DNA from: Falsiroseomonas algicola
GTDB lineage: Bacteria > Pseudomonadota > Alphaproteobacteria > Acetobacterales > Acetobacteraceae
NCBI RefSeq assembly: GCF_011040385.1
Contig: NZ_JAAIKB010000009.1
Span: 62,001 to 126,000, forward strand
Direction of reading: 5' to 3'
Length of the DNA stretch: 64,000 nucleotides
Position 1 is the stretch's first letter, and every line of letters starts with the position of its first letter. The translations under genes and the position numbers were made by a program. Below, piece by piece: positions 4,297 through 61,363 of this stretch. The notes beneath the pieces are model-generated. The model saw only the letters and a program-made list of their open reading frames with translations, had not been told where the DNA came from and did not search any database.

Positions 4297-4488
4297 GGGG
4301 TGCCGATGTCGCGGGTGCCGTCCGGTCGCGGATGGGCTGGTGGTGCCGCGAACATAGCCGGAACGCGGGCGAGGCGCCAGGATAATCGCGCGTCGTGAAG
4401 CCTGGCCGGGCGTGCATGCCGACCATCCCGGCTGGCGGTGGCGTGGTGGCGGCGCCATCTGACGGGCCTGAACCGAGGGAGCAGGGCC

Positions 4489-47314: not shown

Positions 47315-47671
47315 TCAGGGAATCGTCGCGGGAAAGTCGTGCGTGCCATCCGCGCGCAGCGGCAGGCGCGTGACGGAGAGCACGGCAGAGAGCGGCAGGC
47401 TGGCATAGAGGTGCGGGAACAGGCCGGGTCGGCTGCTGCCGGAAGCCGGCTCCCATTTCAGCGCATCGCCGAGCCGCGCCGCATCGGCCTCCACCAGCCA
47501 GAGATCGGCGACGCCGGCGCGGTGCTTGGCCGCGCTGGCGCGCAGCTGGGCGGCGGTGGAGAAATGCAGGAAGCCGTCGCGCTGGTCATGCGCGCTGCCG
47601 GCATAGGCGCCCGCGTCCTCCGCGGCGCGCCAATCGGCTTCCCTCACCATGGTGTAGATGCGGTCTTCCAT
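47315..47671 (-). CDS. DUF952 family protein
   Basis: This 118-residue soluble protein matches the DUF952 pattern along its full length: IYTMVREADWRAAEDAGAY, GSAHDQRDGFLHFSTAAQL, KHRAGVADLWLVEAD, LKWEPASG and FPHLYASLPL. The family has no established biochemical role. It sits just past the left edge of the phage-like cassette, 29 bases beyond the endolysin stop on the same strand, and looks like a normal chromosomal gene marking that boundary. Confidence 0.88.
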   Translation of the reverse strand: MEDRIYTMVREADWRAAEDAGAYAGSAHDQRDGFLHFSTAAQLRASAAKHRAGVADLWLVEADAARLGDALKWEPASGSSRPGLFPHLYASLPLSAVLSVTRLPLRADGTHDFPATIP

Positions 47672-47700: not shown

Positions 47701-48147
47701 TCAGCCGAGCAGGCGGTAGAAGACAAGCCCGCCCGCTTCCGCCACCGGCACCTGGCCCACGGCCCAGCGGGGCAGCGTGTCGGCGGCATGGTAGTGGGTG
47801 GCGCCCCCGGTCGGGTCGGGCAGGGAACCTGACAGCGCCCGCGCGGCGATGCGCTGGCAGATGGCGAAGGCCGGGTCCGCCCGCGTCGCCGGGTTCGCCA
47901 TGGCGTCGCGCCGGGGATGCCTTGGATGCCAGCAGGCGAACTGGAAGGGCGCGCGGCAGATGGCGCTGACCCCGGTGCCGAGGTGCCGCGGCCCCTCCGG
48001 CGCGCTGGCGAGGCGCAGGCGGTTCATGACCACGGCGGCGATGCCCTCGATCCCCCGCACCGGGCGGCCGGCGGCCTCCCCCCAGAGCGTCAGCGCCAGC
48101 ACCAGGAGCCCCGGGGGCGTGGCCGGGCTGCCGATCGCCGCGCTCAC
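47701..48147 (-). CDS. SleB-type cell wall hydrolase, putative endolysin
   Basis: This 148-residue Hydrolase_2 (SleB-like) domain has the expected catalytic Glu24 in LALTLWGEAAG, then GIAAVVMNRL, ICRAPFQFACW and the GATHYHA end motif. The family acts as lytic transglycosylase or amidase on peptidoglycan. There is no signal peptide, so release through the adjacent membrane protein, or another holin, would be needed. The GTG start overlaps the preceding stop by GTGA. It is the last gene of the cassette and most likely its lysis enzyme. Confidence 0.85.
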   Translation of the reverse strand: MSAAIGSPATPPGLLVLALTLWGEAAGRPVRGIEGIAAVVMNRLRLASAPEGPRHLGTGVSAICRAPFQFACWHPRHPRRDAMANPATRADPAFAICQRIAARALSGSLPDPTGGATHYHAADTLPRWAVGQVPVAEAGGLVFYRLLG

Positions 48148-48518
48148 GACCGCGGCTCCGCTTCCGCGCGGGCGGAGAAGCCGACCTTGCGGGGCGTGAC
48201 GACCTGGCCGGAGATGGCGGCGGCCGCGGTCGCGGCGCGGCTCACCTCGTCCAGCTTCTCCTCGATGCGGACCAGGTGCAGCGACAGCCGCGAATCGAGG
48301 TCGCGGATCAGGGACAGCGGCACATAGGTGCGCGCCACCTCCAGCTTGAACTCGGCCAGGTCGTCGCGGGCGGAGGAGGGCGGCGGCGCGGGGGCGGGCG
48401 GCGGTTCCGGCCGCGCCATCAGGTCCCGGCGCAGCAGATGGACCATCCAGAGCATCAGCAACGCCAGCGGCGCATCCGCGGCCGCGGCCAGCAGCTGGGG
48501 CGGGATCTCGGGGATCAT
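48144..48518 (-). CDS. one-TM coiled-coil protein of the phage cassette
   Basis: This 124-residue protein has one N-terminal hydrophobic helix (LLAAAADAPLALLMLWMVHL), a Pro-rich hinge and a C-terminal helical region (LAEFKLEVARTYVPLSLIRD, LDSRLSLHLVRIEEKLDEV) likely to form a coiled coil. Position between terminase and endolysin, with GTGA overlap to the latter, suggests a holin- or spanin-like lysis role. There is no recognised family. AGGAG precedes the ATG. Confidence 0.72.
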   Translation of the reverse strand: MIPEIPPQLLAAAADAPLALLMLWMVHLLRRDLMARPEPPPAPAPPPSSARDDLAEFKLEVARTYVPLSLIRDLDSRLSLHLVRIEEKLDEVSRAATAAAAISGQVVTPRKVGFSARAEAEPRS

Positions 48519-48611
48519 GGGGGCACTCCTTGAAGGGAAGCGGCGGCGGAACCACCCTGGGGGGGCCGCGCGGAAGGGCCGCGCGGGACTGGGGGATGCG
48601 CCGCGCGGCCG

Positions 48612-48830
48612 ATGTGGAACGAGCCTTACCTGGAGACCTGCTGCCGATCGGCGCTGCACCGGCTGACGCTGGTCAGGCCGCATGGGCGCCCGGATGGGCT
48701 GAAGGACGGCCCCTGCCTGCAGAGGCTGGCCGGCATGGGGCTCGCCCGCTGCCGGCCCGATGGGCGGTTCGAGGCGACAGCCGCCGGGCTGGAGCGGCAT
48801 GCCTCGGAGATCGCCCGCAAGCGGGCGTAA
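48612..48830 (+). CDS. small winged-helix-like protein in the cassette
   Basis: This 72-residue protein is the only plus-strand gene inside the cassette. The pattern LQRLAGMGLARCRPDGRFEATAAGLERHASEI resembles the last helix and wing of small winged-helix proteins (poorly conserved L-x-x-L, GL, dGr-x-x-T-x-x-G). It could be a regulator or a phage accessory protein. It lacks a strong ribosome site, and the protein pattern is the main support. Confidence 0.55.
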   Translation: MWNEPYLETCCRSALHRLTLVRPHGRPDGLKDGPCLQRLAGMGLARCRPDGRFEATAAGLERHASEIARKRA

Positions 48831-48833
48831 CCG

Positions 48834-50270
48834 CTACAGGCCGCGCCAGGGCAGGGCGGTGCGCGGCGCCGGCGGCGCGAAGGGCAGCCGCACCGGCTCC
48901 GCCAGCAGGCAGCCGGCCACGGCATCCAGCGCATCGTCGCGCAGCCCCGGCGCATCGGGGCGCCATTCCGCCATCTCCCGCACGAAGCGGCCACGGAAGA
49001 CGCTCTCATGCGCGGAGAGGCGACGGGCGGCGAGCACCGGGTCCAGCGCCGCCAGGATGCGCTCCGACTTCGCGCGGCGGCTCGTCGCCTCCACCACCGT
49101 GCAGGCGCAGCCGGCGCGCGACATCTCCCGCCGCAGCAGGCTGGGCAGGAAGCGGCCGAGGCCGTTCGTCTCCACGCGCACCACGGGCAGCATCAGGTCC
49201 CGCGCCAGCGCCGCGACCGCGCGGCATTGCTGGGTCGCGGCATCCTCCTCCGCATCCGGGTCATGCAGCAGGTAGGCGATGCGGTGGAGGTAGTGCCGCC
49301 CCTCCGCATCCGCGAACATCGCGGCCAGCACGCTGGAATCGCCGGTGCCGGGACGGCCATAGGCCGGGTCCCACCAGCCGCCGCCGGAGACGAGGCGCGT
49401 GCCCATCAGGGACAGCACGCCGCGGCCATTGGCCTCCCGGTAGTCGATCTCCGCGGCGTAGCGCGACATCGCCGCGGGATCGAGCCGCGCGGCGCCGATC
49501 GCCACCGGCTCCAGCATCATCTGCCGGCGGAAGGCGATGGGGCCGACCCGGTCGCGCAGCGCCGCTACGGCCGCATCCGGGAAGCGTTCGGGCCAGGCGC
49601 TGTGCCCGTTCGCATCCAGCAGCGGCAGCATGAGGCGACGGTAGCCCGAGAGGAAGCCGGCCTCGCCTTCGGCATAGAGGCTCTCCTCCGTATGCGGCGT
49701 GCCGACGAAGAGCATGGTGCCGCCGGGGACGAGTACGAACTCGGCCTCGGTAAGCCGCTCCCGCAGCTCCTCCCGCTTCCCCGGCGTGTCGCAATTGCCG
49801 GCGACCTCCACGTCATCGGCGATGATGAGGTCGGCGCGCGCGCCGGTGATGTTGCCGCCGATGCCCGCCGCGATCATGGAGGCATCGCGCAGCACGCCCT
49901 CGCGCGCCACGGTGAAGCGGTCCGACGCCCAGGATCCCTCGCCATGGCCCGGCAGCAGCGCGGCGCAAAGGGGATGGCGGCCGAGGATGCGGCGCACATT
50001 CGCCACCATCTTCGTCGCCAGCGCATGATCCGCCGCCACCACCAGGATCCGCGTCTCCGGTGCGCGGTAGAGCCGCCAGGCGCAGTAGAGGCCGATGAGG
50101 GTGGATTTGCCGAAGCCCCGGAAGGCCATCAGCAGCAGCCGCCGGTCCCCGGCCTTCTCCCGCGCCTGCAGCCAGCGCAGCACGCGCCGGTGCAGGGCAG
50201 GCGTGCCGAGGCCACTCGCCTGGTTCCAGATCCAGGCGAATTCGACCAGGTCGGCGGGGCGTGGGCTCAA
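48834..50270 (-). CDS. phage terminase large subunit
   Basis: This 478-residue DNA-packaging motor has an ATPase with Walker A FRGFGKST (50-57) and Walker B LIIADDVE (148-155), plus a C-terminal RNase-H-like nuclease with Asp301 (WWDPAYG), Glu367 (VETNG) and Asp445/446/449 (LRDDALDA). All key residues are intact. It is of the T7 gp19 type but about 100 residues shorter. Its ATG overlaps the small-terminase stop by four bases. Intact packaging motifs argue against simple decay of the element. Confidence 0.92.
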   Translation of the reverse strand: MSPRPADLVEFAWIWNQASGLGTPALHRRVLRWLQAREKAGDRRLLLMAFRGFGKSTLIGLYCAWRLYRAPETRILVVAADHALATKMVANVRRILGRHPLCAALLPGHGEGSWASDRFTVAREGVLRDASMIAAGIGGNITGARADLIIADDVEVAGNCDTPGKREELRERLTEAEFVLVPGGTMLFVGTPHTEESLYAEGEAGFLSGYRRLMLPLLDANGHSAWPERFPDAAVAALRDRVGPIAFRRQMMLEPVAIGAARLDPAAMSRYAAEIDYREANGRGVLSLMGTRLVSGGGWWDPAYGRPGTGDSSVLAAMFADAEGRHYLHRIAYLLHDPDAEEDAATQQCRAVAALARDLMLPVVRVETNGLGRFLPSLLRREMSRAGCACTVVEATSRRAKSERILAALDPVLAARRLSAHESVFRGRFVREMAEWRPDAPGLRDDALDAVAGCLLAEPVRLPFAPPAPRTALPWRGL

Positions 50271-50593
50271 GCGTTCTCCTCCGTGGGTGGATCCTCGCCC
50301 TCGCCCTCGCGCGCGATCATGGCGCGCGCATGGGCCAGGACATCCTGCACCGCCTCCTCGGCCTCCTCGGCATCTCCCGTGGCCAGGGCAGCGAGCTCGC
50401 TGATATGCGCCAGCGCGGCGCGGGCGGCGGATTGCCGCGCCGCGAAGGTCTTCGCATCCGGCGGCACCTCCTCCAGCGGCGGGTCGTTGATGAAATGCGC
50501 GTATTCATCGGCGACGCGGTCCAGCACGGCGGCGAGCTTGGCCCGCGGCACGCGCTGGGCCTTGCCGCGGGTCGTCCCGGCAGGCTTCCTCAT
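50267..50593 (-). CDS. putative terminase small subunit
   Basis: This 108-residue, mostly helical, Lys/Arg-rich then acidic protein contains KLAAVLDRVADEYAHFINDP and SAARAALAHISELAALA. Size, composition and position directly before the large terminase, with ATGA overlaps on both sides, support a gp18-like small terminase that recognises DNA for packaging. Sequence evidence for the family itself is weak. Confidence 0.65.
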   Translation of the reverse strand: MRKPAGTTRGKAQRVPRAKLAAVLDRVADEYAHFINDPPLEEVPPDAKTFAARQSAARAALAHISELAALATGDAEEAEEAVQDVLAHARAMIAREGEGEDPPTEENA

Positions 50594-52872
50594 GCCTTCA
50601 CCACCCGCACGCGCACCGTGCCCGCATTGAGGTCCACCGCCGCGCCGGAGCGGTTCCAGGCCGTGACCGTCACCGTATCCTGCGCCCCGATCTGCGCCAG
50701 GAAGACGCAGCCGGAGGTGGAGAGCGAATAGGCCGCCTGCACGAAATCCCCGGGCCGCGCGCCGGCCACGGTGACGTTGATCTGCGCGCTGGCGCCGGCG
50801 GCGATGGAGGGCGGGTCCCAGGCCTGTTCGGCTATCAGGTCCCGCACGCCGATGCGAAGGTCGGGCAGCCCATACAGCAGGGGCGGCGCCTGGCGCGGAT
50901 CGCAATGCAGGCGCATCGCCCGCACCTCGTAATCCGTCGTGATGCGCGCGACACCGATGATGGCGGTGGCCACCTGCGGCGCCAGGCGGATCGCCTGCAG
51001 CCGCGTCAGCCCGGCATCATCCATGTCCGCCGACCCCTGCCACCACCGCGCCGTCGCGTTCCAGGCCAGCGACTGGCCGGACGCCATGACCATCGTGCCC
51101 GCCGCATCGGTCAGCAGGTTCCAGCTGGCATCGAAGGCCATCACGACGAGGCGCGGCGAATCCGCATCCACGGTCAGCGCGAAGTCCTTGCAGCGCGCCG
51201 TATCCACGACGAAGCCGAGGCCACGCCCGCCGGTCAGGATCACGCCGCGGCTGGTGAGCACGTAGGAATCGAGGGCCGGGAAGGCGAATTGCGGCAGCGA
51301 TGTCGGGCTGCCGGAGACGTTGGTGGAGAGGCAGGCCAGCTTCTCGAACCCCGTCTCCGTCCCATTCCACCGGATGGCGGCGGCGCGGAGCGAGGGGACC
51401 GAGGCCACTTCCCGCGTCGCCTCCCGGTTCGGCAGCGCCTGGTGATAGGCCTTCACCACGCCGCCGAGACGCGTCGCCGTCTCCGTATGCTCGATCTCGA
51501 TCGCATAGCCCTGGCTCGCCCAGGCGATCTCATACAGATGGTCCTGCGCGCCGGCGGTGTGGCGGGCCACGATGGGGTCGCAGCCTTCCATCCGGATGGC
51601 GCGCGCCACCACGGCGCGGCTGTTCACCTCCATCAGGAAGGGGATTCCGGTCGCCGGGATGTCGCGGGCATTCAGCTCGAAATTCGGGCCGTCGAACAGA
51701 TGGCGGTTATGCGCGACATAGGCGCCGGGCTCGGCGGAGAAGCGGATGCCGAAGCGGTCCTTGTCCGTATGGACCGTGCTGCCCACGGCGAAGTGGCCGC
51801 CATAGTAGCGGATGGAAGTGTTCCACGCCGCCGCCGTCAGGGTATGCACGTCGAGCCCGATCTTGTTGTTCACGAAGCGGCCGAGGATGAGCGTCGTATC
51901 CTCAAACCCCCGCTCATCGCCCAGCGTGCGCAGCCCGATGGTGAAGCCCGTGATCTCCCGGATCTCGATCAGCGAGGCGTCGTGGTTGCGCAGCACCACG
52001 CCGATGTCGCCCTCGCTCAGCCAGTCGCTGGTGGTGGCGCGCGTCACCGCGATGCCGCTGTGCAGCTTGTTGGCGTTGCGCGTCGTGCCGCCATCGCCGA
52101 TGGTGAGCGCGGGCTGGTTGCCCGGGCCCGCATAGACGATGCGGCCACGCATGGTGAGCCCCGCCGCCGCGCCCGGCAGCGTGAGCGGCTGCTGCGTGCG
52201 GAAGGAGCCTTCCCCGATCGTCAGCATCTTGCCGGAGGCGGCGGCCGCGTTCATCGCGGCTTGCAGCGCGGGCCCGTCATCCGTCACGCCATCGCCGGTC
52301 GCGCCGAAATCGCGCGCGGTCAGCGTCTCCGCCAGCTTGTCCTCCACCGTGTGCGGCACGGCGCCGGGAAAGGGCGCGGTCAGCAGGCCGGAATCGCGCG
52401 GCACGACGACGATGTCGCCCACGCTGTCGAAGCCGAGCAGCCGGTTGGCGCGCGCGCTGCGCATCGGCAGCGTCATCTCGCCGCCGATGTCGGCGGGATC
52501 CCGCCTGAGGGCGGAGGAAAGCTCCTCCCGCTGCTCCTGCAGCGCCGCCACCATGCGGTCGAGCTCGTCGTTCAGCGTGCGGGCGCGCAGCACGCCATTG
52601 TCCTGGAAGTCGGTGGTGCGTTCGACCTTGATGCGCCGCCGCAGCGTCACCGTGCTGCCGATGGCCGGCGCGGCGGGAAGCGTGACGGTGCCGCCATCGG
52701 AGAGGCCGGCGCCGGAGACGGTGTAGCCGCTGCCGAGGACGATGCCGTCGATGCGGACCTCCATCTCCTCCGCCATGAAGATGGGGAAGGGGTAGGTGAA
52801 GTCGGTGCGCGCGCCATCGCCCACGTATTGCACGCGCGGCGCGACGTCGCCGATGCGGATGTGCTCGGCCAT
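50590..52872 (-). CDS. phage tail fibre/spike with beta-helix domain
   Basis: This 760-residue structural protein begins with a T7 gp17-like attachment domain (about 1-150: VQYVGDGARTDFTYPFPIFM, LNDELDRMVAALQEQRE). A right-handed beta-helix follows, opened by a pectate-lyase-3-type motif (TARDFGATGDGVTDDGPALQ, about 186-205). The final 150 residues are beta-rich and probably bind receptor. Such spikes recognise or degrade surface polysaccharide. It overlaps the small terminase by four bases. Confidence 0.88.
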   Translation of the reverse strand: MAEHIRIGDVAPRVQYVGDGARTDFTYPFPIFMAEEMEVRIDGIVLGSGYTVSGAGLSDGGTVTLPAAPAIGSTVTLRRRIKVERTTDFQDNGVLRARTLNDELDRMVAALQEQREELSSALRRDPADIGGEMTLPMRSARANRLLGFDSVGDIVVVPRDSGLLTAPFPGAVPHTVEDKLAETLTARDFGATGDGVTDDGPALQAAMNAAAASGKMLTIGEGSFRTQQPLTLPGAAAGLTMRGRIVYAGPGNQPALTIGDGGTTRNANKLHSGIAVTRATTSDWLSEGDIGVVLRNHDASLIEIREITGFTIGLRTLGDERGFEDTTLILGRFVNNKIGLDVHTLTAAAWNTSIRYYGGHFAVGSTVHTDKDRFGIRFSAEPGAYVAHNRHLFDGPNFELNARDIPATGIPFLMEVNSRAVVARAIRMEGCDPIVARHTAGAQDHLYEIAWASQGYAIEIEHTETATRLGGVVKAYHQALPNREATREVASVPSLRAAAIRWNGTETGFEKLACLSTNVSGSPTSLPQFAFPALDSYVLTSRGVILTGGRGLGFVVDTARCKDFALTVDADSPRLVVMAFDASWNLLTDAAGTMVMASGQSLAWNATARWWQGSADMDDAGLTRLQAIRLAPQVATAIIGVARITTDYEVRAMRLHCDPRQAPPLLYGLPDLRIGVRDLIAEQAWDPPSIAAGASAQINVTVAGARPGDFVQAAYSLSTSGCVFLAQIGAQDTVTVTAWNRSGAAVDLNAGTVRVRVVKA

Positions 52873-52903
52873 CGTGGGCTCCAGGAAAGGGGGGCAGGGA
52901 AGG

Positions 52904-52924
52904 CGCCACGCCTTCGGCGTGGCG
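52904..52924 (-). promoter_or_regulatory. hairpin between gp14-like and tail fibre genes
   Basis: A perfect 9-bp stem (52904-52912 with 52916-52924) with a three-base loop occupies most of a 60-base gap. No T run follows on the minus strand, so processing or partial attenuation is more likely than full termination. Confidence 0.5.
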
Positions 52925-52932
52925 ACGGGACA

Positions 52933-53373
52933 TCAATCCAGCAGGTTGCGCAGCGAATTGCCGAAGCTGCTGCCGGCGCGCAGCCAGGTCGTCAGCGATC
53001 CGTCATTGTTGAGCAGGCTGCGCCGCCCGGCGGAAAGCCGGGCGGCGAAGACCTGGTCGCTATCCGCCTGCGCAGCCGCGGCATCGCGTTCGAAGCCCGC
53101 CGTCAGGGCGGCGGCGGAGCCTTCGTCCGGGGAGACGCCGCTGGCGGCCAGCCGCGCGCGGGCTGCGGCGGTGGTGCCCGCCAGCCGCGCCTCCCGCGCC
53201 CGGGCTTCCGCCGCCTGCTGCGCGGCCAGCTGCTGCTGGCGTGCGGCTTCCTGCTGCCGGGCCGCCTCGGCCTGGGCGCGGGCGTTGCTCGACTGCGTCT
53301 GGGCCTGTCGCACGGTCGAATAGATCGATGCGCCCGCGCCGAGCGCGGTCGCGATGGGGGCGAGCTGCGCCAT
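52933..53373 (-). CDS. internal virion protein, gp14-like
   Basis: This 146-residue Ala/Gln-rich protein has an N-terminal hydrophobic stretch (LAPIATALGAGASIYSTV), a long helix (about 20-75) and AAARARLAASGVSPDEGSA. Both pattern and place after tail tubular B match T7 gp14-type core or ejection proteins. Its ATG overlaps the preceding stop by one base. The larger gp15 and gp16 partners are not present. Confidence 0.68.
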   Translation of the reverse strand: MAQLAPIATALGAGASIYSTVRQAQTQSSNARAQAEAARQQEAARQQQLAAQQAAEARAREARLAGTTAAARARLAASGVSPDEGSAAALTAGFERDAAAAQADSDQVFAARLSAGRRSLLNNDGSLTTWLRAGSSFGNSLRNLLD

Positions 53374-55253
53374 CAGTCGGTCATCCTCATGTCGGTGGTG
53401 ACGGAAAGCAGGGTCAGCGGCAGCGGCGTCTCACCCTCCACCCGCCACAGCGGTGCCATCGCATCCCGCCGCCAGCCCAGCGCGCGCAGCGTGACATCGC
53501 CGGTGAAGGGCGCGGGCGCCGCATCCAGCAGCGCGGTATCGAGCCGCCGGAACGGCACCGGCTGCACCCCGCGGCCGAGATCGACCTCCAGCGCCGGCGT
53601 CTCCATCACCCGGAAGGTGGCGGAAACCAGGCGCAGCGGCGCCGAGGCCGCGCCGCTCGCGCCCGACAATGCGGTGGGCAGCGGTTCCACCACATGGCGG
53701 AAGGGCAGCCCGGCCTGCACCGACCGTGCCGGCGGATCGAGCGTGACGGCGCCCGCCGCGACGGTCGCGGTGCCTCGCGGCGCGCCATCGGCCAGCACGC
53801 CCACTTCCGCCCCTTCGAGATGCGAGAGCCCGGACCAGACATCCTGTTCCGCCGCGCTGCTGCCGGACAGCGCGGCATCCAGGCCGAGCGTGGCGTCGAA
53901 GCGTTCCAGGCGGTAGGATCCGCGGCGTTGCACCACGGCGAAGACGCGGCCCTCGGTTTCCGCCACCGCCTTGAACAGGCCATCGGTGTCGAGCCGCGTC
54001 CAGGCCGTCACCTGCTCCGCGCGATACAGCGTCAGCGTCGCGATCGAGCCATCCGCCATCACCACATGCAGCAGCCGCATGGTCTGGTCATAGGCCATGG
54101 AGACCGGCGACTGGATCAGGTGATGCGCGACGAGCGCAAGGTCATTGGCCTGGTAGACATCGGCGACGTCGGTATAGGCGAATTCATGCACCGCGCGGCC
54201 GGACCGCGCGACGAAGAGCGTCGCGCCATCCACGTCGACCGGCGGCACCTGCCGGTCCACCAGGCTGCCGACGCGGGTCTGACGATGCAGCTGGATGGAG
54301 GAAGGCGTCAGCGGATCGCCCGTCACCATCCATTCGGCGCCGGAGGTGAAGACCTGCAGGTGCCGGCCGGAGAAGACCGCGCGGATCGCATTCACCTGGT
54401 CCGAGACCAGCGCGAATTCGATCGCCTGGTCATCGAGGCCGGTGCCGTTGTCGAAATTGCCGATGTCGCCGGTCCTCGACAGCCAGAGCCGGTTCGGCAG
54501 GTCCCGCGATCCGCCCAGCACCAGGCGGTCCTGGTGGAAGCAGGCGGAGACGGGATAGCCGCGGATGCCGCTGAAGGCGGGCTCCGCCCAGTCCGTGGTC
54601 GCGGTGGTGCCCGGCAGCGTGCCGGCCACCACCGCCGTCGCATTCCGGGCATCCGTCACCGCGGTGATCGTCGCGGTCAGCCCGGCGATGCGGAAGGACG
54701 CCGTGACATAGCCGGCGGAGAAGACATCGGCGGAGGCCGTCAGCGTGATGGTGCCGCTGGTCGCGGATGGCGTCAGCGTCACGCCCGGGCGGAAATTGTA
54801 GACGGGCACGGCATCGAAGACGAAGGGCGCGAGCGTCCAGCTGGTATGGCTGGTCCGCGTCAGGCGCTGCGGCGCCACCTCCGGGTGGAACAGCAGCAGC
54901 GTATCCGCACTCTGCGTGAAGGCGACCTGCGCCTGCATGCTGGTCGACCAGGGCGCGGGCAGGGTCGCCACCGCCGCATCGCCCAGGAAGACCTGCAGCT
55001 GGCCCTCGGTCAGCGCCAGCAGGTAGGTCTGCTCCGTGTTGAATTCGAAGGGGATCAGCCGCGCCGGGCCCGGCAGCGTCGCCACATGCAGCAGACCCGG
55101 GCGGCGCGCGACGCCGCCGGTCGGCTGGATGACGACGTTGCGCAGCCGCCGCGCGCCATTCTCGAAGGCGCGGAGGTCGCCGCGGCCATAGAGGTTGGGA
55201 GCGAGTTCGCCGGCGGTGAAGGATGACTTGGTGCGTCGTGTCGCGATGGTCAT
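53373..55253 (-). CDS. tail tubular protein B-like (gp12 type)
   Basis: This 626-residue beta-rich protein begins with a typical podovirus nozzle motif (KSSFTAGELAPNLYGRGDLR, then AFENGARRLRNVVIQPTGGV and ARRPGL). DRLVLGGSRDLPNRLWLSRT and SGAEWMVTG are further family features. It would form the distal tail tube that carries the fibres. It is shorter than T7 gp12. It starts four bases after tail tubular A ends. Confidence 0.86.
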   Translation of the reverse strand: MTIATRRTKSSFTAGELAPNLYGRGDLRAFENGARRLRNVVIQPTGGVARRPGLLHVATLPGPARLIPFEFNTEQTYLLALTEGQLQVFLGDAAVATLPAPWSTSMQAQVAFTQSADTLLLFHPEVAPQRLTRTSHTSWTLAPFVFDAVPVYNFRPGVTLTPSATSGTITLTASADVFSAGYVTASFRIAGLTATITAVTDARNATAVVAGTLPGTTATTDWAEPAFSGIRGYPVSACFHQDRLVLGGSRDLPNRLWLSRTGDIGNFDNGTGLDDQAIEFALVSDQVNAIRAVFSGRHLQVFTSGAEWMVTGDPLTPSSIQLHRQTRVGSLVDRQVPPVDVDGATLFVARSGRAVHEFAYTDVADVYQANDLALVAHHLIQSPVSMAYDQTMRLLHVVMADGSIATLTLYRAEQVTAWTRLDTDGLFKAVAETEGRVFAVVQRRGSYRLERFDATLGLDAALSGSSAAEQDVWSGLSHLEGAEVGVLADGAPRGTATVAAGAVTLDPPARSVQAGLPFRHVVEPLPTALSGASGAASAPLRLVSATFRVMETPALEVDLGRGVQPVPFRRLDTALLDAAPAPFTGDVTLRALGWRRDAMAPLWRVEGETPLPLTLLSVTTDMRMTD

Positions 55254-55257
55254 GCGA

Positions 55258-55836
55258 TCACCCCCTGACCGAGACCAGCGGGAAATCCTCGATCGCGCGC
55301 GGCGTATCCTGCTGGCTGTCGATCTGCCGCGCGCCGCGCAGCTCCGTCTCCGCCAGGCGGAACAGCATCTCCGCCCGCGAGGCGGATTCCGTCAGCGGCA
55401 GGCAGAATTCCGCCGCCAGCCGTGCCACCAGCGCCTGCGCGAAGAAGGGCGGGAAGGCGCTTTCATCGGCGCGGAAGATGTAGGTCAGCACGACCTGCTC
55501 GGCATCGGCGTGCAGCCGGTCCTCATGGATGCGATAGGGCGTGCCCCGCCCGCGCCCGCCGCTGCCGGCGGACAGCGCCCGCAGGAAGCCCGGCGGCAGC
55601 TGGAAGGCATGCGCCATGTCCGCCTGCGGCACGGCGGCGAGGCGGGGGAGGGAGGCCTGGCCCGTGGCGAAGGACCAGGGATGGGCGGAGAGCAGCGCAT
55701 CGCGCACCGGCGCGTAGAGGTTCGCCGCCACCTCCGCCTCCGCCGTCCCCTCATCCAGTGAGGCGACGGGCTGCGCGCCAAGGCGCAGCAGGGCGCGCGA
55801 GCACAGCGCGAGCGCGGTGAGTGCCATGGTTGTCAT
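55258..55836 (-). CDS. tail tubular protein A-like (gp11 type)
   Basis: This 192-residue protein is close in length to T7 gp11 and forms the adaptor between portal and tail nozzle. Family-like segments are LCSRALLRLGAQPVASLDEG, NLYAPVRDALLSAHPWSFAT and ALVARLAAEFCLPLTES. It lies between the capsid and gp12-like genes as in T7. Confidence 0.86.
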   Translation of the reverse strand: MTTMALTALALCSRALLRLGAQPVASLDEGTAEAEVAANLYAPVRDALLSAHPWSFATGQASLPRLAAVPQADMAHAFQLPPGFLRALSAGSGGRGRGTPYRIHEDRLHADAEQVVLTYIFRADESAFPPFFAQALVARLAAEFCLPLTESASRAEMLFRLAETELRGARQIDSQQDTPRAIEDFPLVSVRG

Positions 55837-55914
55837 GTCCGTTCGCGGGAGGATGGGCGGCCCCCGTCATCGGAGGACCGCCCCTGGTGGTGGCGACAGG
55901 CTGACCCTTGCGCC

Positions 55915-56754
55915 TTACTCCGCCGCGCGCATGCGCACGACGCCCATGTCATCGACCAGCACGGCGCCCTGGCTCATCATGTTGGCGACGAAATGCGCGG
56001 CGCGGTCGCCGTGCCAGGTCACGTCCGTCTGCACTTCCGCCGCCGCGGCATGGCCGATGGCGGTGCGGTGGAAGAAGTAGCAGTAGCGCAGCGCGCCGGA
56101 CTTGGTCAGGCCGGAATGCGGCATCCACAGCGCGCCGAGCCAGCGCTTCGCCTGGCTGCCCTTCCAGGGCAGCGCCTCCTCGCCGACATACTGGGAGGAG
56201 GCGAACTCCTCGATGTCCAGCAGCTGGCTCCACTGCTTCCAGCCGACGACGGCGACGCGGCCGCCATCATCCGGCACTTCCGCCGCGCCCATCATCTCGA
56301 AGGCCAGCAGCACCTTGGCCTTGGTCAGCCCGTCCGTATCCGTGGTGCCGGGCGCGGTGCCGATCGCTTCCCGCGTGCCGGCATCCAGCGCCGCGATGAT
56401 CAGCTCATCCGTCTTGCGGCCCAGCGCATAGGCGCCGGCATTGGCGACGACCGTGCGCTCATCGATGTTGGTCTTCAGCTCATCGAGGCGATCGATCCAG
56501 TCGCCGGCATAGTAGTCCTGCAGCACGCATTCGACCTGCGCGTGCTCCAGGTTCATCACGGGCACGGCGCCGTTGCGCGTCTTCGCCGCGGCGGTGCCCT
56601 TGCCGACCTTCGGGAAGAAGGTGCTGGAGCCGGTGACGCCGGACTTGGACCGCACGAGCGGGCGCAGCTTGCTGCCATGGCGCTGATAGGCCTCCTTCAC
56701 CTCGGCCTCGAACTGGCGGGTGAAGACGGCGTCGATCTGGGTGCTGGTGGGCAT
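55915..56754 (-). CDS. major capsid protein
   Basis: This 279-residue protein has an N-terminal helix (TQIDAVFTRQFEAEVKEAYQ), a middle with VECVLQDYYAGDWIDRLDEL and RKTDELIIAALDAGT, and a C-terminal FVANMMSQGAVLVDDMGVVR, consistent with an HK97-fold podovirus coat protein. ATG 56754 follows an excellent GAAGGAGG site, as expected for the most abundant product. The 272 bases upstream hold two strong hairpins and no gene. Confidence 0.82.
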   Translation of the reverse strand: MPTSTQIDAVFTRQFEAEVKEAYQRHGSKLRPLVRSKSGVTGSSTFFPKVGKGTAAAKTRNGAVPVMNLEHAQVECVLQDYYAGDWIDRLDELKTNIDERTVVANAGAYALGRKTDELIIAALDAGTREAIGTAPGTTDTDGLTKAKVLLAFEMMGAAEVPDDGGRVAVVGWKQWSQLLDIEEFASSQYVGEEALPWKGSQAKRWLGALWMPHSGLTKSGALRYCYFFHRTAIGHAAAAEVQTDVTWHGDRAAHFVANMMSQGAVLVDDMGVVRMRAAE

Positions 56755-56890
56755 CGCGGCCCTCCTTCGTCTTGTGGGTGCGGGGAAGGGGCCGCGCCGC
56801 CGGTTGCCCCCTGGGGTGGTGCACCCCTGGGGCCGGCGCCACGGCATGGCTCCGCAGGCCCGCTCGCGCGGGTTGCTTGCGGGAAGGGGG

Positions 56891-56966
56891 GCGGGGCGGA
56901 TGGGGACCGTGTCGGCCCGCGCCATCCGCCCCGCGATCGCCGCGCCCGGGGATGGGGCGCGGCGAT
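56891..56966 (-). promoter_or_regulatory. two long hairpins between scaffold and capsid genes
   Basis: A perfect 13-bp stem (56891-56903 with 56922-56934) is followed immediately by a perfect 12-bp stem (56936-56947 with 56955-56966). They lie in the only wide gap of the structural operon, upstream of the capsid gene. No T tract follows. Such stems often stabilise or process mRNA so that capsid is made in excess over scaffold. The remainder of 56755-57026 holds nothing else recognisable. Confidence 0.6.
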
Positions 56967-57026
56967 GCCGGCCGGCGCCACGCGCTGCGAGGGGCAGCGG
57001 GCGCCTGGCCGGATCTCAGCCGTCGG

Positions 57027-57776
57027 CTATTCGCCGACGAGCCGCTTGAACCCGTCCGTGACACGCTTCACGAAATCGGGCTCCCGCGTCCGCCAGTAGC
57101 GGGGGTCGCGCATCATCCGGCGCAGCTCGCCCTCATCCGGCCCGGCTTCCGCCTGCGCGTCGCGCGCCAGCGGCGGTTCCTTGCCCTCCATCATCCGCTG
57201 CAGGGCGATGACGCCTTCGGCGGTGCTGGACAGCGCGGTGAAGACCGCTTCCGGCAGGTTGGCGCGGCCCCAGCTGGACAGCTGCGCCGCGATCCGGCGG
57301 AAGCGTTCCTCGCCGCCGAAATGCGCCTGCAGCTTCTCCACCTGGCGCGCCGCCTCGAAATCCGCGGCGGCCTCGGCGATCAGCGGCATCAGCCGTTCCG
57401 CGGCGAGGTCATAGACCAGCTGCACCTGGCGCGGCGTGAAGCCCGCCTCGTGCAGCCTGGCATTCACCGCCGCGTCGGGCGTCACCACCTCATTGGGCGG
57501 CGTGATCTCATAGCCATCCGGGCTGTCGGGAATGCCGAGCAGCCGGCGCCAGCGCTGGCGCTCCTCCTCCGGCGCGTCATCCGTGGGCGGCGCCTGGCGC
57601 TGGGACATGCGGCGTTCCAGTTCCAGGTAGGATTTCAGCAGCGCATCGACGCGCAGCGCGCCGGCGGCCTCGTCCCAGAACTTCTCCGGGATCTCGGCCG
57701 GGCGGGGGGTGCGGCCCTGCGGCGCTTCCGGCTTCAGGGCGGTCTCGAGAAGATCCTCGGGCATGCCGGGGCTCAC
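57027..57776 (-). CDS. capsid assembly scaffold protein
   Basis: This 249-residue acidic, helical protein opens with PRPAEIPEKFWDEAAGALRV and DALLKSYLELERRM, a common start for phage scaffold proteins (the frame-deforming FWD...G..R.d.LlKsY.eLE pattern). It ends with DPRYWRTREPDFVKRVTDGF. Gene order portal-scaffold-capsid matches T7. It would guide capsid assembly and then be expelled. The start overlaps the portal stop by four bases. Confidence 0.85.
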   Translation of the reverse strand: MSPGMPEDLLETALKPEAPQGRTPRPAEIPEKFWDEAAGALRVDALLKSYLELERRMSQRQAPPTDDAPEEERQRWRRLLGIPDSPDGYEITPPNEVVTPDAAVNARLHEAGFTPRQVQLVYDLAAERLMPLIAEAAADFEAARQVEKLQAHFGGEERFRRIAAQLSSWGRANLPEAVFTALSSTAEGVIALQRMMEGKEPPLARDAQAEAGPDEGELRRMMRDPRYWRTREPDFVKRVTDGFKRLVGE

Positions 57777-59221
57777 TCCTGGGTCTGGGGTTGGGCGGGG
57801 GTCGCATCGGCGGGCCGCAGGATTTCGGGCGGCGCGCCCAGCGTTCGGGCCAGCCAGCGCGCGGCCGCCGGCGCATCCAGCGTGGCGCGCGCCTCCGGAC
57901 CCAGCGTCGCCGCCGCCTGCAGGAACAGCAGCGTGTCCGCCGCATCCGCGCGGGCCTGCACGCGTGCCAGCGGCGAGGCATAGGTCAGCCGCGCCTCCCG
58001 CCCATCGGGCAGCAGGGCGGGAATCTCGCCACGGCGGCGCAGCACCGCGAGGCAGCGCGCGACGAGCGGCGTCAGCAGCTCCGCCTGCAGCCGGCCATAG
58101 GTGGCGCCGAGCAGCCGCGCGGATTGCGCGCTGCGCTCCAGCACCTCCGTCGCCGTCATGCCGGCCTTCTCGGATTGCGCGATGCGGTCGGCCAGCAGCG
58201 CGCCCCGGATGCGGGTGCGCAGGTCGGTCAGCACGAGCTGGGAGACGTCGAAATTCCCCGGCGCGGCGAGCGGCGTGAGGCCGGAGGAACCCGGCGCCTT
58301 CGGGATGATGGCGCCCGGCACCAGGCGGACCGTGGCGGGGTTCAGCACGCCGTCATCCTCCGCCTGCCAGATGCCCGTGGCCGCGATGGAGGCGTTCTTC
58401 AACACCAGCTCCACCACCTTGTTGGCGGTGCGGATGTCCGGCAACGCCTTGGCGACGGGGCCGCGGCCATAGGTCTCGCCCGGCACCTTCAGCCAGCGGA
58501 AGGCGATGAAGGGGCTCTCCGCGAAACGGCCCTCGGCCAGCAGCCGGGGCGTCCCATCCTCCTCCTCCACCACCACGGCCAGGCGGTGGCCATGGCGCGG
58601 ATCGGGCCAGGCGGCTTCCACCACGCGCAGCTTCGGCGGGGTCTCGTCCTCGCCCCGGCGGCGCTCCTCGATCATCGCCGCGGGCCAGCGCGCCTTGATC
58701 TCCGCCGCCGTCAGCCGCATCGAGCGGAACACGGTGTCGAGCCGGCCGGAAACGCCTTCCTCCAGCACCGCATCGCGCATCGGCACGGCGGAGAAGCGCA
58801 GCGCGGAAGCCTCCCCCACCGGCGCCTCCTCCACCAGCAGCAGGCCGGTGCCGGTGACGACCAGGTCGAGGAAGGCCTGGTGCACCTCCAGCCCGAAATT
58901 GGACCGGTCGAGATGCCCCTGCAGCGTCTCCGCCGCCTCCTCCAGCGCCTTCGCCACATCCTGGGCTGCCGCGCTGTCCGCCACCTTGCGGGCCGGCGCC
59001 AGGCCGAACCAGCGGGACCAGGGCGGCACGAGTTCGGCGAGCAGGGACGCCGCGAGCTGTTCCGCCGCATCGGCGGCGGTCGCATCGAACAGCGGCGCCG
59101 CATTCGGCGCGGGCAGGGCGACGTCGTAGCAATCCTGCCACTGGCCCTCCAGCGGGCGGCGGCGGGCGCTGGCACGGGCGTGCTGGGCCAGGATCTCGTC
59201 CGGGGTCATCATCGCCCTCAT
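57773..59221 (-). CDS. portal (head-tail connector) protein
   Basis: This 482-residue T7 gp8-like connector includes LAASLLAELVPPWSRWFGLA, HQAFLDLVVTGTGLLLVEEA, GRGPVAKALPDIRTANKVVE and KAGMTATEVLERSAQSARLL, all typical of podovirus portals. It would form the dodecameric ring through which DNA is packaged. It overlaps the preceding small gene by four bases and the scaffold gene by four. Confidence 0.9.
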   Translation of the reverse strand: MRAMMTPDEILAQHARASARRRPLEGQWQDCYDVALPAPNAAPLFDATAADAAEQLAASLLAELVPPWSRWFGLAPARKVADSAAAQDVAKALEEAAETLQGHLDRSNFGLEVHQAFLDLVVTGTGLLLVEEAPVGEASALRFSAVPMRDAVLEEGVSGRLDTVFRSMRLTAAEIKARWPAAMIEERRRGEDETPPKLRVVEAAWPDPRHGHRLAVVVEEEDGTPRLLAEGRFAESPFIAFRWLKVPGETYGRGPVAKALPDIRTANKVVELVLKNASIAATGIWQAEDDGVLNPATVRLVPGAIIPKAPGSSGLTPLAAPGNFDVSQLVLTDLRTRIRGALLADRIAQSEKAGMTATEVLERSAQSARLLGATYGRLQAELLTPLVARCLAVLRRRGEIPALLPDGREARLTYASPLARVQARADAADTLLFLQAAATLGPEARATLDAPAAARWLARTLGAPPEILRPADATPAQPQTQE

Positions 59222-59466
59222 TCCCCAAGCAGGTTCTTGCGCTGGGCGAAGCCCGGCACGGGATCCAGCACGCCGCGCGCGGAGGTCGCGATGGTGCCGG
59301 CCAGGCCGCGCCGCGCGCGGTCCAGCGCCTTCCGGCGGGCGGTTTCCGCCGCGGCATCCGCGCTGGCCTGCGCCGCCGCGGCGGCATCGGCCTGCGCCTG
59401 CACCGTGGCGGCGGTGGAATCGGCGGCAGGCGCCGCCGGCTTCGGCGCCCTGATCAGGCCACCCAT
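59218..59466 (-). CDS. small podovirus head-region protein
   Basis: This 82-residue protein has an MGGLIRAPK start, an Ala/Gln-rich helix and a conserved-looking end (RRGLAGTIATSARGVLDPVP, then GFAQRKNLLGE). Similar short proteins sit beside portal genes in many podoviruses, with no known role. The ATG at 59466 follows GAAGGAAG. It is the first gene after the minus-strand terminator, so it heads the late group. Confidence 0.72.
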   Translation of the reverse strand: MGGLIRAPKPAAPAADSTAATVQAQADAAAAAQASADAAAETARRKALDRARRGLAGTIATSARGVLDPVPGFAQRKNLLGE

Positions 59467-59509
59467 GCGCGCTTCCTTCGGCTTGATCGGTGAACGGGCC
59501 GGCCCGCCG

Positions 59510-59547
59510 CCAAAAGAAAGGGCCCGTCCGGCGAACCGGACGGGCCC
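59510..59547 (-). terminator. terminator at the head of the late phage genes
   Basis: Read on the minus strand, a perfect 12-bp stem (59547-59536 with 59531-59520) closed by a TTCG loop is followed by TTTCTTTTGG. It lies 80 bases past the stop of the two upstream genes and 54 bases before the first head gene. No convincing promoter is seen between it and that gene, so late expression may need read-through or antitermination. Confidence 0.78.
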
Positions 59548-59627
59548 GAGGCAGGGACCGGAGGGAGGTGCCATCGGGCGCAACTCGCCCCGTGGCCTGG
59601 CCTGTGTAGCGGCCTGTCAGCGCCGCG

Positions 59628-60092
59628 TCAAGAATTAATTCCTATTTCGCCGAAGATTCTCGAGGCGGTCGCGCCTTCCACCCGGCCACCCAGCGCGCGG
59701 AACAGCCCGAAGGGCGTGACGGCGAAGGGCGCGCCGGGCCCGAGCAGCGCGCGGCAGAGCGAGACGCAGGTGAACGGCATCAGGCTCGGCCCGAGGCTGG
59801 CCGCCGGCTCCCCCGGCAGGAAAGGGCCGAGCACGCGCAGCCCCGCGCGGCGATAGAAGCCCGGCAGGTCGAAGCCCGCCGCCACCGGGAGGCGCGCCAC
59901 CATCAGCCGGCCCGACAGCGGTTCCAGCACCGTCCAGCCGGCCTCGTCCGACAGCGCGGCGAAGCAGTGGCGGAAGCCGGGCCGCAACAGCCGCAGCCAG
60001 GGCTGGTCCGCCACGCCGCCGAAGGCGATCCAGACGCCCTGGCTGGGCCCGTCCGCGGCCAGCAGGCGTCGATGCGCGAGCCGCGCTCTCAT
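59628..60092 (-). CDS. phage-associated protein, possible permuted papain fold
   Basis: This 154-residue protein is of unknown family. It contains His42 (FRHCFAAL), Glu57 (VLEPL) and Cys109 (PFTCVSLCRALLG), an order (His, acid, Cys) like circularly permuted NlpC/papain-type hydrolases, plus TPFGLFRAL. That assignment is tentative. Its ATG overlaps the previous stop by four bases. It ends just before the terminator, so it belongs to the early two-gene unit. Confidence 0.6.
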   Translation of the reverse strand: MRARLAHRRLLAADGPSQGVWIAFGGVADQPWLRLLRPGFRHCFAALSDEAGWTVLEPLSGRLMVARLPVAAGFDLPGFYRRAGLRVLGPFLPGEPAASLGPSLMPFTCVSLCRALLGPGAPFAVTPFGLFRALGGRVEGATASRIFGEIGINS

Positions 60093-60541
60093 CGACGCGG
60101 CCCCGGGAAGGGCAGGATCTCCGCCCCGCCACGCTTCGGCGTCTCCACCGGCAGCGTCATCCCGCGCGCCGGCCCGGCGACGATCCCCTTCTGCCGCAGC
60201 GGATAGTCCAGCCGGTCCATCGCCTCCCGCCACAGGCGCAGGTCACCGGCTTCCTGCGGGATGCGCGGGCTCGGCTGTTCGCCGCGCTCGCCCCAGATGC
60301 GCAGGATGCGCGCATGGGCCAGGTCGATCCGCCGCTGGCGGTACAGCCGGTCCAGCACCTTCACCACGTCATCGGGCTCGCAGGGCCGCACGACGGACCC
60401 ACGCGCCGCGCCCAGCCGCGCGCCGTCGCGCCGGGCGGTCAGCGCCGCCATGGTCCAGAACCAGGCATCCTCGGCACAGCTGAAGGGTTCCGCGCGGCTC
60501 ATGCTGGCCAGGACAGGGGCGCGGCTGGTGACGAAAGCCAT
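60089..60541 (-). CDS. conserved helical protein, first gene of the cassette
   Basis: This 150-residue protein is of unknown function. Most of it is helical, with CAEDAWFWTMAALTARRDGA, RPCEPDDVVKVLDRLYRQRR and DLRLWREAMDRLDYPLRQKG. The style is that of conserved alphaproteobacterial phage or host proteins, but no family is recognised. ATG 60541 follows AGGAAGG; an inner ATG at 60502 is possible. It faces the repressor gene across a candidate operator region and is probably directly controlled by it. Confidence 0.65.
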   Translation of the reverse strand: MAFVTSRAPVLASMSRAEPFSCAEDAWFWTMAALTARRDGARLGAARGSVVRPCEPDDVVKVLDRLYRQRRIDLAHARILRIWGERGEQPSPRIPQEAGDLRLWREAMDRLDYPLRQKGIVAGPARGMTLPVETPKRGGAEILPFPGPRR

Positions 60542-60569: not shown

Positions 60570-60635
60570 GAACAAAACAGGAACAAGCCCCTTCTAGACC
60601 GTTCCACTCAGGGTTGCAAGGATGTTGTTCCTATT
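60570..60635. promoter_or_regulatory. candidate operators and promoter facing the cassette
   Basis: GAACAA occurs at 60570-60575 and 60581-60586, 11 bases apart. The second lies in AACAGGAACAA (60576-60586), which is inverted with one mismatch as TTGTTCCTATT at 60625-60635. A minus-strand promoter TTGCAA-N17-TAGAAG (60619 down to 60591) lies between these arms, so a bound repressor could block it. The region is AT-richer than its surroundings. Confidence 0.5.
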
Positions 60636-60718: not shown

Positions 60719-61363
60719 ATGCGGCACGAGGATATCTGGCGGGCGATCGACGCGCTCGCCGCCGAACACGGGCTGTCGGCCTCCGGCCTGGCGCGCCGGG
60801 CGGGGCTGGACGCCACCGCCTTCAACCCGTCCAAGCGCACCGGCGCGGATGGGCGGGCGCGCTGGCCCTCCACCGAAAGCGTCGCCAAGGTTCTGCACGC
60901 CACCGGCACGGGGATGGAGGCCTTCGCCTCCCTGGTCACCGGCGCCCCCGTCCTGCCGCGCAACCGCGCCATCTCCGCACGCCGCATCCCGCTGATCGGC
61001 CTCGCCCAGGCGGGTGGGGAGGGTTATTTCGACGATGGCGGCTACCCCGTCGGCGGCGGCTGGGACGAGATCTCGGTGCCCGACGTGCCTGACCCCAACG
61101 CCTATGCGCTGGAGATCAGCGGGGAGAGCATGGAGCCGGTGTTCCGCGACGGCGACGTCGTCATCGTCTCCCCCGGCGCGCCGGTGCGGCGCGGGGACCG
61201 CGTGGTGGTGCGGACCCGGGCGGGGGAGGTGATGGCCAAGCAGCTGCTGCGCCAATCCGCCCGGCGCGTGGAACTCGCCAGCCTCAACCCGGCGCATCCC
61301 AACTACAGCTTCGACCTCGCGGAACTGGCCTGGATGCACCGCATCGTCTGGGCCAGCCAATAG
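60719..61363 (+). CDS. S24 (CI/LexA-like) helix-turn-helix repressor
   Basis: This 214-residue regulator has an N-terminal HTH (about 5-72: DALAAEHGLSASGLARRAGL) and a C-terminal S24 self-cleaving domain with Ser137 (GESMEP) and Lys174 (MAKQL). A candidate Ala98-Gly99 cleavage site lies in LAQAGGEG. Proteins of this type repress phage genes until RecA-stimulated cleavage. It is divergent from the particle cassette across 177 bases with repeated motifs, so it is the likely master switch. Related regulators are also chromosomal in alphaproteobacteria, so a host role is possible. Confidence 0.85.
   Translation: MRHEDIWRAIDALAAEHGLSASGLARRAGLDATAFNPSKRTGADGRARWPSTESVAKVLHATGTGMEAFASLVTGAPVLPRNRAISARRIPLIGLAQAGGEGYFDDGGYPVGGGWDEISVPDVPDPNAYALEISGESMEPVFRDGDVVIVSPGAPVRRGDRVVVRTRAGEVMAKQLLRQSARRVELASLNPAHPNYSFDLAELAWMHRIVWASQ

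Follow-up and report, generated by a model that had tools for sequence, protein, structure and literature searches.

What is a 13-kb set of phage particle genes, without the genes that a virus needs to multiply, doing in the chromosome of a Roseomonas-like bacterium? The set lies in a 64,000-nucleotide stretch of Falsiroseomonas algicola DNA (hereafter, the window; contig NZ_JAAIKB010000009.1, positions 62,001 to 126,000). The original prediction described it as an intact T7-type particle cassette that lacks integrase, polymerases and large ejection proteins, and suggested that it resembles a domesticated particle or a podovirus-derived gene transfer agent (GTA). We addressed this question by analyzing the gene content of the locus, its distribution and mode of inheritance, and its relationship to prophages and known GTAs. 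The observation is confirmed, and the interpretation is largely right but too narrow, given that the cassette, in whole or split form, extends to many other alphaproteobacteria.

Gene content of the T7-type cassette

The reverse strand at 47701-60541 encodes a compact virion gene set in open frames. Profile searches against PHROG and Pfam identified a portal (head-tail connector; 57773-59212; PF12236, E 7.5e-121), a T7-type scaffold (57027-57764; PF05396, 3.5e-15), a major capsid protein (55915-56754, with the start assigned by codon scoring; PF19821, 7.3e-77), tail tubular protein A (gp11-like; 55258-55827; phrog_394, 1.2e-46) and tail tubular protein B/nozzle (gp12-like; 53373-55253; phrog_376, 5.7e-148). 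These are followed by a small gp14-like internal virion protein (52933-53373; phrog_418, 9.7e-8) and a tail fibre/spike (50590-52872) that combines a T7 gp17 N-terminal domain (PF03906, 2.6e-8) with a pectate-lyase-like domain (PF12708, 1.3e-6). Since the gp14-like protein is present, only the large ejection proteins are missing. The large terminase (TerL; 48834-50183; phrog_38, 2.9e-81) contains ATPase and nuclease residues; the Walker A/B residues are found in 38 of 39 orthologues, with the remaining one gapped there, and the nuclease acidic residues in 39 of 39. The original prediction counted both terminase subunits, but the small terminase call is weak because it rests on a 108-aa ORF (50267-50593) that matches a PHROG of unknown function (phrog_31793, 5.5e-7) and evolves fast (dN/dS 0.35-0.52). 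The lysis end consists of a small membrane/coiled-coil protein (48144-48518; phrog_29007 of unknown function, 1.8e-13), a probable holin or spanin by position only, and a cell-wall hydrolase (endolysin; 47701-48147; PF07486, 1.4e-11 and 2.4e-12 in two searches). Next to the lysis end, a DUF952 protein of unknown role (47315-47671, reverse strand; PF06108, 7.5e-27) is a recurrent neighbour in 17 of 26 family loci and in several distant loci.

Upstream of the portal, the same strand encodes three less understood proteins. A small pre-portal protein (59218-59466), with a weak phrog_831 match, occurs in most but not all family loci. h201 (59628-60092) is a conserved protein with an invariant His-Cys and Cys, for which a peptidase-like role is only inferred. 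h172 (60089-60541) is a conserved helical protein of unknown fold and a probable regulator, as inferred from its position; it was aligned over 55 sequences and is also found in a related prophage and in some cassette-less S24 loci. AlphaFold models of h172 and h201 both have a pLDDT of 85, but neither matched a PDB structure at E<=0.001, and profile searches also gave no usable match.

The unit begins at a divergent S24/CI-like repressor on the forward strand (60719-61363; PF00717, 1.2e-21; phrog_4, 1.8e-23), beyond the region initially delimited. Its AG cleavage site, Ser and Lys are conserved in most orthologues (A 34, G 33, Ser 32 and Lys 32 of 39). The repressor gene was observed in 24 of 26 family loci (one of them partial, whereas the other two loci end before it), in 76 of 80 named loci and in 20 of 20 class loci, 3.3 kb off in one. 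Noticeably, the divergent promoter carries the SOS-box motif GTTCCTGTTTTGTTC at 60570-60584 on the reverse strand, about 29 bp upstream of the h172 start. The motif GTTCN7GTTC is given for Caulobacter (PMC9578287). The exact motif is present in 50 of 71 family intergenics and 10 of 27 class loci, and the family promoters hold nearly all such motifs of 1.34 Mb. However, 21 of 71 family and 17 of 27 class promoters have no exact SOS box. S24, h172 and SOS boxes also occur where the cassette is missing, so the switch may have another use.

Neighbouring frames overlap by 4 bases at 48144-48147, 50590-50593 and 60089-60092, and GC3 is 0.902 for 14 cassette genes against 0.910 for 47 other window genes. 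The ten flanking genes scanned are host metabolism, LysS and GroEL, and no tRNA was found in the window. The longest direct repeat between the flanks (14 bp) lies within the controls (12-15 bp). No integrase, phage RNA polymerase or replication gene was found in the cassette or in the flanking genes scanned.

Distribution, inheritance and loss

Is the cassette confined to one strain? The gene order recurs in 26 of 26 family loci as far as their sequence reaches, and 60 of 61 named-genome loci that are long enough hold all eight core genes. The cassette portal is present in 25 of 29 Acetobacteraceae with rpoB identity >=87% but in only 2 of 88 below that. Beyond the family, portal orthologues at >=50% identity occur in 44 of 385 genomes, in 27 other alphaproteobacterial families. 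The 20 class loci first fetched all have S24 upstream, and 11 of them run on past the scaffold into the tail genes. TerL was detected in 55 of 57 genomes and gp12 in 28 of 32. Plasmids hold no match covering 80% of the portal.

Sequence divergence shows mainly vertical inheritance under purifying selection. Cassette distances correlate with those of rpoB (portal r=0.91 over 40 genomes; all ten genes p<=0.045 within family and within class). The dN/dS values in three species pairs are 0.03-0.20 for portal, scaffold, capsid, tail genes and TerL, and 0.09-0.20 for capsid, portal and TerL. A portal tree built with a quick method puts long phage branches inside the cassette group with weak support; when five long rows were dropped, one clade of all 46 cassette rows was not rejected (p-AU 0.495), although this does not prove a single origin.

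Interestingly, in ten genomes of five families the set is split over the chromosome, 10 kb to 1.2 Mb apart or on different contigs. In seven of them (G489, G584, G561, G420, G691, G614 and G355 in our genome numbering), the core frames tested are open. In the other three, one gene is broken: the capsid is divided between the two places in G331, the portal is interrupted by about 17 kb in G366 and the scaffold is in two frames in G532.

Could the cassette instead be a defective prophage that was inserted once in an ancestor and is now decaying, kept by chance or because single genes such as the repressor or lysis genes are useful? Some copies are indeed deleted or broken. Losses at the same site, however, also speak for the host-owned system proposed below: one cassette-less relative (locus L185) keeps DUF952-lysis-TerL-h172-S24-DUF2156 without the structural genes, L194 has a portal with an internal deletion, and L192 keeps S24 and lysis genes. 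L105 ends in gp12, and gp12, fibre or TerL frames are short in L112, L145, L117, L121 and L106. In a class group at 43-48% identity, the order is partly scrambled, no S24 was seen near the portal in six loci fetched, and TerL is split or carries stops in four genomes. However, virion genes stay open across many families, dN/dS is well below 1 and nearly every long named locus keeps the eight core genes. Decay is thus unlikely, given the purifying selection on the whole virion set.

Phage, killer particle or gene transfer agent

A working temperate phage whose replication and integration genes lie elsewhere or come from a helper, as in a satellite, is also conceivable because packaging and lysis genes are complete and related prophages live in some of the same genomes, one with integrase and primase. 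We consider this very unlikely. The neighbours of the cassette are conserved and no att repeats were found, the open split sets argue against it, and two co-resident prophages use a different TerL family, phrog_2 instead of phrog_38. Moreover, the 80 IMG/VR loci kept of 456 matches hold only cassette-size sequence (at most 13.6 kb; median 12.2 kb).

The gap between gp12 and fibre is 437-697 bp in 64 of 64 named loci, and short gaps are also found in class loci, against about 8.4 kb with 1,022- and 1,564-aa ejection-type proteins in a related prophage (in genome G047). To examine whether such proteins are encoded elsewhere, 45 genomes were searched with the 1,022-aa gp15/16-like protein alone. 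Some match was obtained in 44, but outside G047 (itself) and G044 (residues 256-830), the other genome with such a prophage, the matches covered at most about a third of the protein and centred on the lytic-transglycosylase domain, as in host enzymes. The missing ejection proteins leave room for a particle with another host function, namely a bacteriocin-like killer or a carrier that does not deliver DNA, and PBSX is a precedent for DNA-filled particles that kill instead of injecting (PMC12946183). This alternative is unlikely, given the conserved TerL residues and the conservation of the fibre within the family (48-74% identity in 24 of 25 loci, 35% in L050), where a killer would usually be expected to show fast-changing specificity.

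Domestication is therefore well supported. With reasonable confidence, we propose that the cassette is a virus-derived particle system owned by the host, most likely an ancient, vertically inherited and probably SOS-controlled podovirus-type GTA in lineages without RcGTA, although SOS induction, packaging of random host DNA and transfer are inferred in the absence of expression and particle data. In our model, LexA and the S24 repressor silence the divergent promoter in normal growth. DNA damage would activate RecA, LexA and S24 would be cleaved, and h172 and the downstream operon would be expressed. T7-type procapsids would then be filled with host DNA by TerL, a short tail and fibre would be added, and the holin/spanin-like protein and hydrolase would lyse the cell. 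The fibre may recognise kin. Without the gp15/gp16-type conduit, the DNA is perhaps left in the recipient's periplasm and taken up by the cell's own machinery, although DNA delivery without large ejection proteins is unproven. More tentatively, such an agent may already have been present in an early ancestor of much of the Alphaproteobacteria, persisting in lineages that lack RcGTA (RcGTA replaced it or arose where it was lost) and becoming spread over two chromosomal modules in several families.

Comparison with known systems

The formally classified alphaproteobacterial GTAs are the RcGTA and BaGTA types (PMC9662315), and our literature searches, which did not extend to most subscription papers, found no podovirus-type or T7-like GTA in Acetobacteraceae. 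A further, short-tailed system in lineages without RcGTA would mean that particle-borne gene exchange was domesticated repeatedly in one class. It would also mean that a good many 12-13 kb IMG/VR records are host gene sets, not viruses.

RcGTA and its relatives (Rhodogtaviriformidae; CcGTA) share with the cassette host-integrated virion genes, vertical inheritance, purifying selection (PMC9662315, PMC6821227) and probably a repressor-led switch, which is RogA/GafYZ in Caulobacter (PMC11150451). The cassette differs in its T7-type short-tail gene set and in the SOS-box motif at the switch. DUF2460, a probable marker of RcGTA-type tail genes that was detected only in Caulobacter among 14 control genomes, is absent from 39 of 39 cassette genomes tested. 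A published screen lists 0 RcGTA-like clusters in 34 Acetobacterales, 12 Azospirillales and 15 Rhodospirillales OTUs (PMC6821227). BaGTA of Bartonella (Bartogtaviriformidae) is likewise a compact alphaproteobacterial cluster that co-evolved with its hosts; an HK97-type capsid gene and a nearby origin of replication are described for it (PMC9662315), and the capsid here is PF19821 with T7-type scaffold and tail. FpGTA of Faecalibacterium, from Gram-positive gut bacteria and supported by particle proteomics and DNA data, has short-tail-type genes and two operons about 125 kb apart in one strain (PMC12946183).

The 10-kb GTA-like particles of Azospirillum lipoferum and strain B510 also come from Alphaproteobacteria outside the RcGTA orders and, obtained with a mitomycin C procedure, contain random ~10-kb host DNA (PMC3899980). 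Their genes are unsettled, with an HK97-like four-gene stretch proposed in that study, and it is a tentative possibility that the present cassette type could be the unidentified agent. Finally, among temperate T7-type podoviruses, the G047 prophage has the same portal-scaffold-capsid-gp11-gp12-gp14 order with a related fibre, and Yersinia phage YeP5 has a similar layout by ORF sizes. They differ from the cassette in that YeP5 carries integrase, DNA polymerase I and primase, the G047 prophage has large ejection-type proteins and the G044 prophage has primase and integrase.

Composition and extent of the particle cassette

The cassette is encoded on the minus strand of the window, from 60541 down to 47701, in a 6.56-Mb genome. 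Profile searches identify the portal, a T7-type scaffold, the capsid, both tail-tube proteins, a fibre with the T7 gp17 N-terminal domain, TerL and a cell-wall hydrolase, as well as a small gp14-like internal virion protein. All of the frames are open, and three neighbouring pairs overlap by four bases. The original prediction counted both terminase subunits among the encoded proteins; however, the small terminase is the weak point of this assignment because the 108-aa ORF between the fibre and TerL matches a PHROG of unknown function. The ten flanking genes scanned encode host metabolism, LysS and GroEL, no tRNA was found in the window, and direct repeats between the flanks are no longer than those in control pairs of window segments. 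In addition, the GC3 of the cassette equals that of the other window genes. A DUF952 gene (47315-47671) lies near the lysis end in 17 of 26 family loci and in several distant loci, and its product may be a functional partner of the cassette.

The unit is larger than the 47701-60541 interval of the original prediction. A divergent S24/CI-like repressor gene (60719-61363) lies immediately upstream, and its cleavage site and catalytic Ser and Lys are kept in 32-34 of 39 orthologues. Between this gene and the first cassette gene (h172), GTTCCTGTTTTGTTC at 60570-60584 matches the SOS box GTTCN7GTTC listed for Caulobacter (PMC9578287 Table 1; PMC12700426). A second exact SOS-box motif, GTTCCGGCTATGTTC, lies at 4350-4364. 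In the window alone, two such motifs are not significant, given that 14 of 100 shuffles reach two. Across the family, however, they are significant. Exact boxes occur in 50 of 71 intergenics, with 51 boxes in 16 kb of intergenic sequence (including the one of the window), while the whole loci, which comprise 1.34 Mb without the window, hold 57. Class loci have an exact box in 10 of 27 cases, and 11 of 20 S24 loci from genomes without an intact portal also have one. Thus, the rule is not universal, and the switch also exists without the cassette.

Inheritance within and beyond the Acetobacteraceae

Of 150 family genomes, 34 have a portal match, two of which are prophage-like at 26%, leaving 32. 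The rpoB identity to the window genome splits the sample. With full-length rpoB at >=87%, 25 of 29 genomes have the cassette portal (in one genome on two contigs and in another with an internal deletion), and four do not. Below 87%, 2 of 88 genomes have it, and the other five holders have a partial or no rpoB match. The gene order is the same in the 26 loci fetched, as far as their sequence reaches; S24 is seen in 24 of these loci, one of them partial, and the other two end before it. All eight core genes are found in 60 of the 61 loci that are long enough, and the exception, a Roseomonas harenae locus, is broken in gp12. Short frames also occur in gp12 and the fibre (two loci each) and in TerL (one locus). 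Noticeably, losses occur in place: one locus (L185) keeps both ends but lacks the structural genes, a second (L192) keeps S24 and lysis genes, and a third (L194) has a portal with an internal deletion. Of the 17 other S24 loci fetched from genomes without the cassette, 10 keep S24 with h172 and 7 show S24 alone. In cassette-less S24 loci such as L187 (5939-13658; genome G067), S24 and h172 persist beside a conserved 77-aa ORF (phrog_18004, unknown function), with dihydroorotate dehydrogenase-like and HAD-like genes nearby, as judged by eye. Sphagnum contigs mapped to Acetobacteraceae (PMC12142844) include an S24 gene, DHOD and P2/Mu-like baseplates, and a second domesticated element may therefore use a similar switch.

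Beyond the family, 102 of 385 class genomes match the portal. Besides the window genome, 44 genomes in 27 other families do so at 50% identity or more. Of the remaining 57, three have split matches at 52-66%, and the rest lie at 24-48% and include prophage-like loci. The 20 class loci first fetched all have S24 upstream, although it is 3.3 kb off in one of them. Eleven loci run on from the scaffold to the capsid and tail genes, in some as far as the lysis genes and DUF952, while eight break after the scaffold or capsid and one ends with its contig. For those that break, the rest of the set was sought elsewhere. In ten genomes of five families, the part from S24 to the scaffold and the part from the capsid to the lysis genes lie 10 kb to 1.2 Mb apart or on different contigs. 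The core frames tested are open in seven of these genomes, whereas one gene is broken in each of the other three: the capsid gene is divided between the two places in genome G331, the portal is interrupted by about 17 kb in G366, and the scaffold match lies in two frames in G532. The split sets thus offer a natural series for how such a set is broken up. A mobile phage is not expected to be organized in this way, and FpGTA is a published two-operon precedent (PMC12946183). TerL was found in 55 of 57 genomes searched and gp12 in 28 of 32. In three 0.9-Mb genomes of one genus, the TerL match is split into an N-terminal and a C-terminal part about 3.4 kb apart, and a further genome (G595) has stops inside its TerL match. 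In six loci at 43-48% portal identity from reduced genomes, no S24 was seen near the portal, and the order is partly scrambled.

Pairwise protein distances of ten genes correlate with those of rpoB. For the portal, r is 0.91 over 40 genomes, 0.70 within the family and 0.60 within the class set. The weakest within-set p value is 0.045 (S24, class set), and the within-set r is as low as 0.27-0.35 for some genes, so some transfer is not excluded. Against the three closest species, dN/dS (Nei-Gojobori) is 0.09-0.16 for the portal, 0.11-0.20 for the capsid, 0.03-0.13 for gp11, 0.14-0.19 for gp12, 0.18-0.19 for TerL and about 0.14 for the fibre. The values are 0.31-0.37 for the small pre-portal protein, 0.35-0.52 for the small-terminase candidate, 0.28-0.31 for the lysin and 0.03 for S24, and the flanking DUF2156 gene gives 0.15 in the one pair with it. 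The dS of the cassette is like that of its neighbours, which argues against recent transfer. Interestingly, the capsid (55915-56754) and gp11 (55258-55827) have low dS (0.12-0.26) compared with most cassette genes, as if synonymous sites are also constrained. In a portal tree, the 21 Acetobacteraceae rows form one clade (98, starred), and one clade for all 46 cassette rows is not rejected when five long rows are dropped. A 5-kb 'Bacteriophage sp.' contig from a human faecal sample (MT838907.1) groups in this tree with the cassette of a 1.6-Mb genome (100, starred), so gut bacteria may carry this set too.

Contrast with related prophages

Three cassette-bearing genomes (G047, G044 and G059) also hold diverged podoviral prophage relatives (about 26-52% identity) that serve as natural comparators for domestication. 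The G047 copy has 1,022- and 1,564-aa ORFs between gp14 and the fibre, with about 8.4 kb from gp12 to the fibre. The first of these ORFs carries a transglycosylase domain and matches phrog_342, internal virion protein with endolysin domain. The G044 copy has primase and integrase genes nearby, and the G059 copy has a helicase. Moreover, G047 and G044 use a different TerL family (phrog_2 against phrog_38). In the cassettes, the gp12-to-fibre distance is 437-697 bp in 64 of 64 named loci. A search with the 1,022-aa protein found matches beyond about a third of its length only in G047 and G044 among 45 genomes. IMG/VR contains 456 matches, and the 80 best-matching loci are at most 13.6 kb, from contigs of at most 16.2 kb. 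Named phage records come no closer than 51% (an unannotated 5-kb faecal contig).

Proposed identity and comparison with known gene transfer agents

What is the biological identity of this cassette? The best explanation is a host-owned, short-tailed gene transfer agent that is probably under SOS and S24 control, although its induction, random packaging of host DNA and transfer are inferred from sequence. TerL keeps its Walker residues in 38 of 39 orthologues, one being gapped there, and its nuclease residues in 39 of 39, so packaging is probably active.

Podovirus-type GTAs have one precedent that we found in print, FpGTA of Faecalibacterium (PMC12946183). DUF2460, a probable RcGTA marker, was absent in 39 of 39 cassette genomes, without a matching search in cassette-less genomes, while only Caulobacter was positive among the control genomes. 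This absence agrees with the published 0 of 34 Acetobacterales, 0 of 12 Azospirillales and 0 of 15 Rhodospirillales OTUs (PMC6821227 Table 3). We regard the cassette as a GTA variant that lacks this marker and do not assign it to a named family. Interestingly, Azospirillum lipoferum and strain B510 are reported to yield particles with about 10 kb of random host DNA whose genes are unsettled (PMC3899980), and the cassette described here is a candidate for them.
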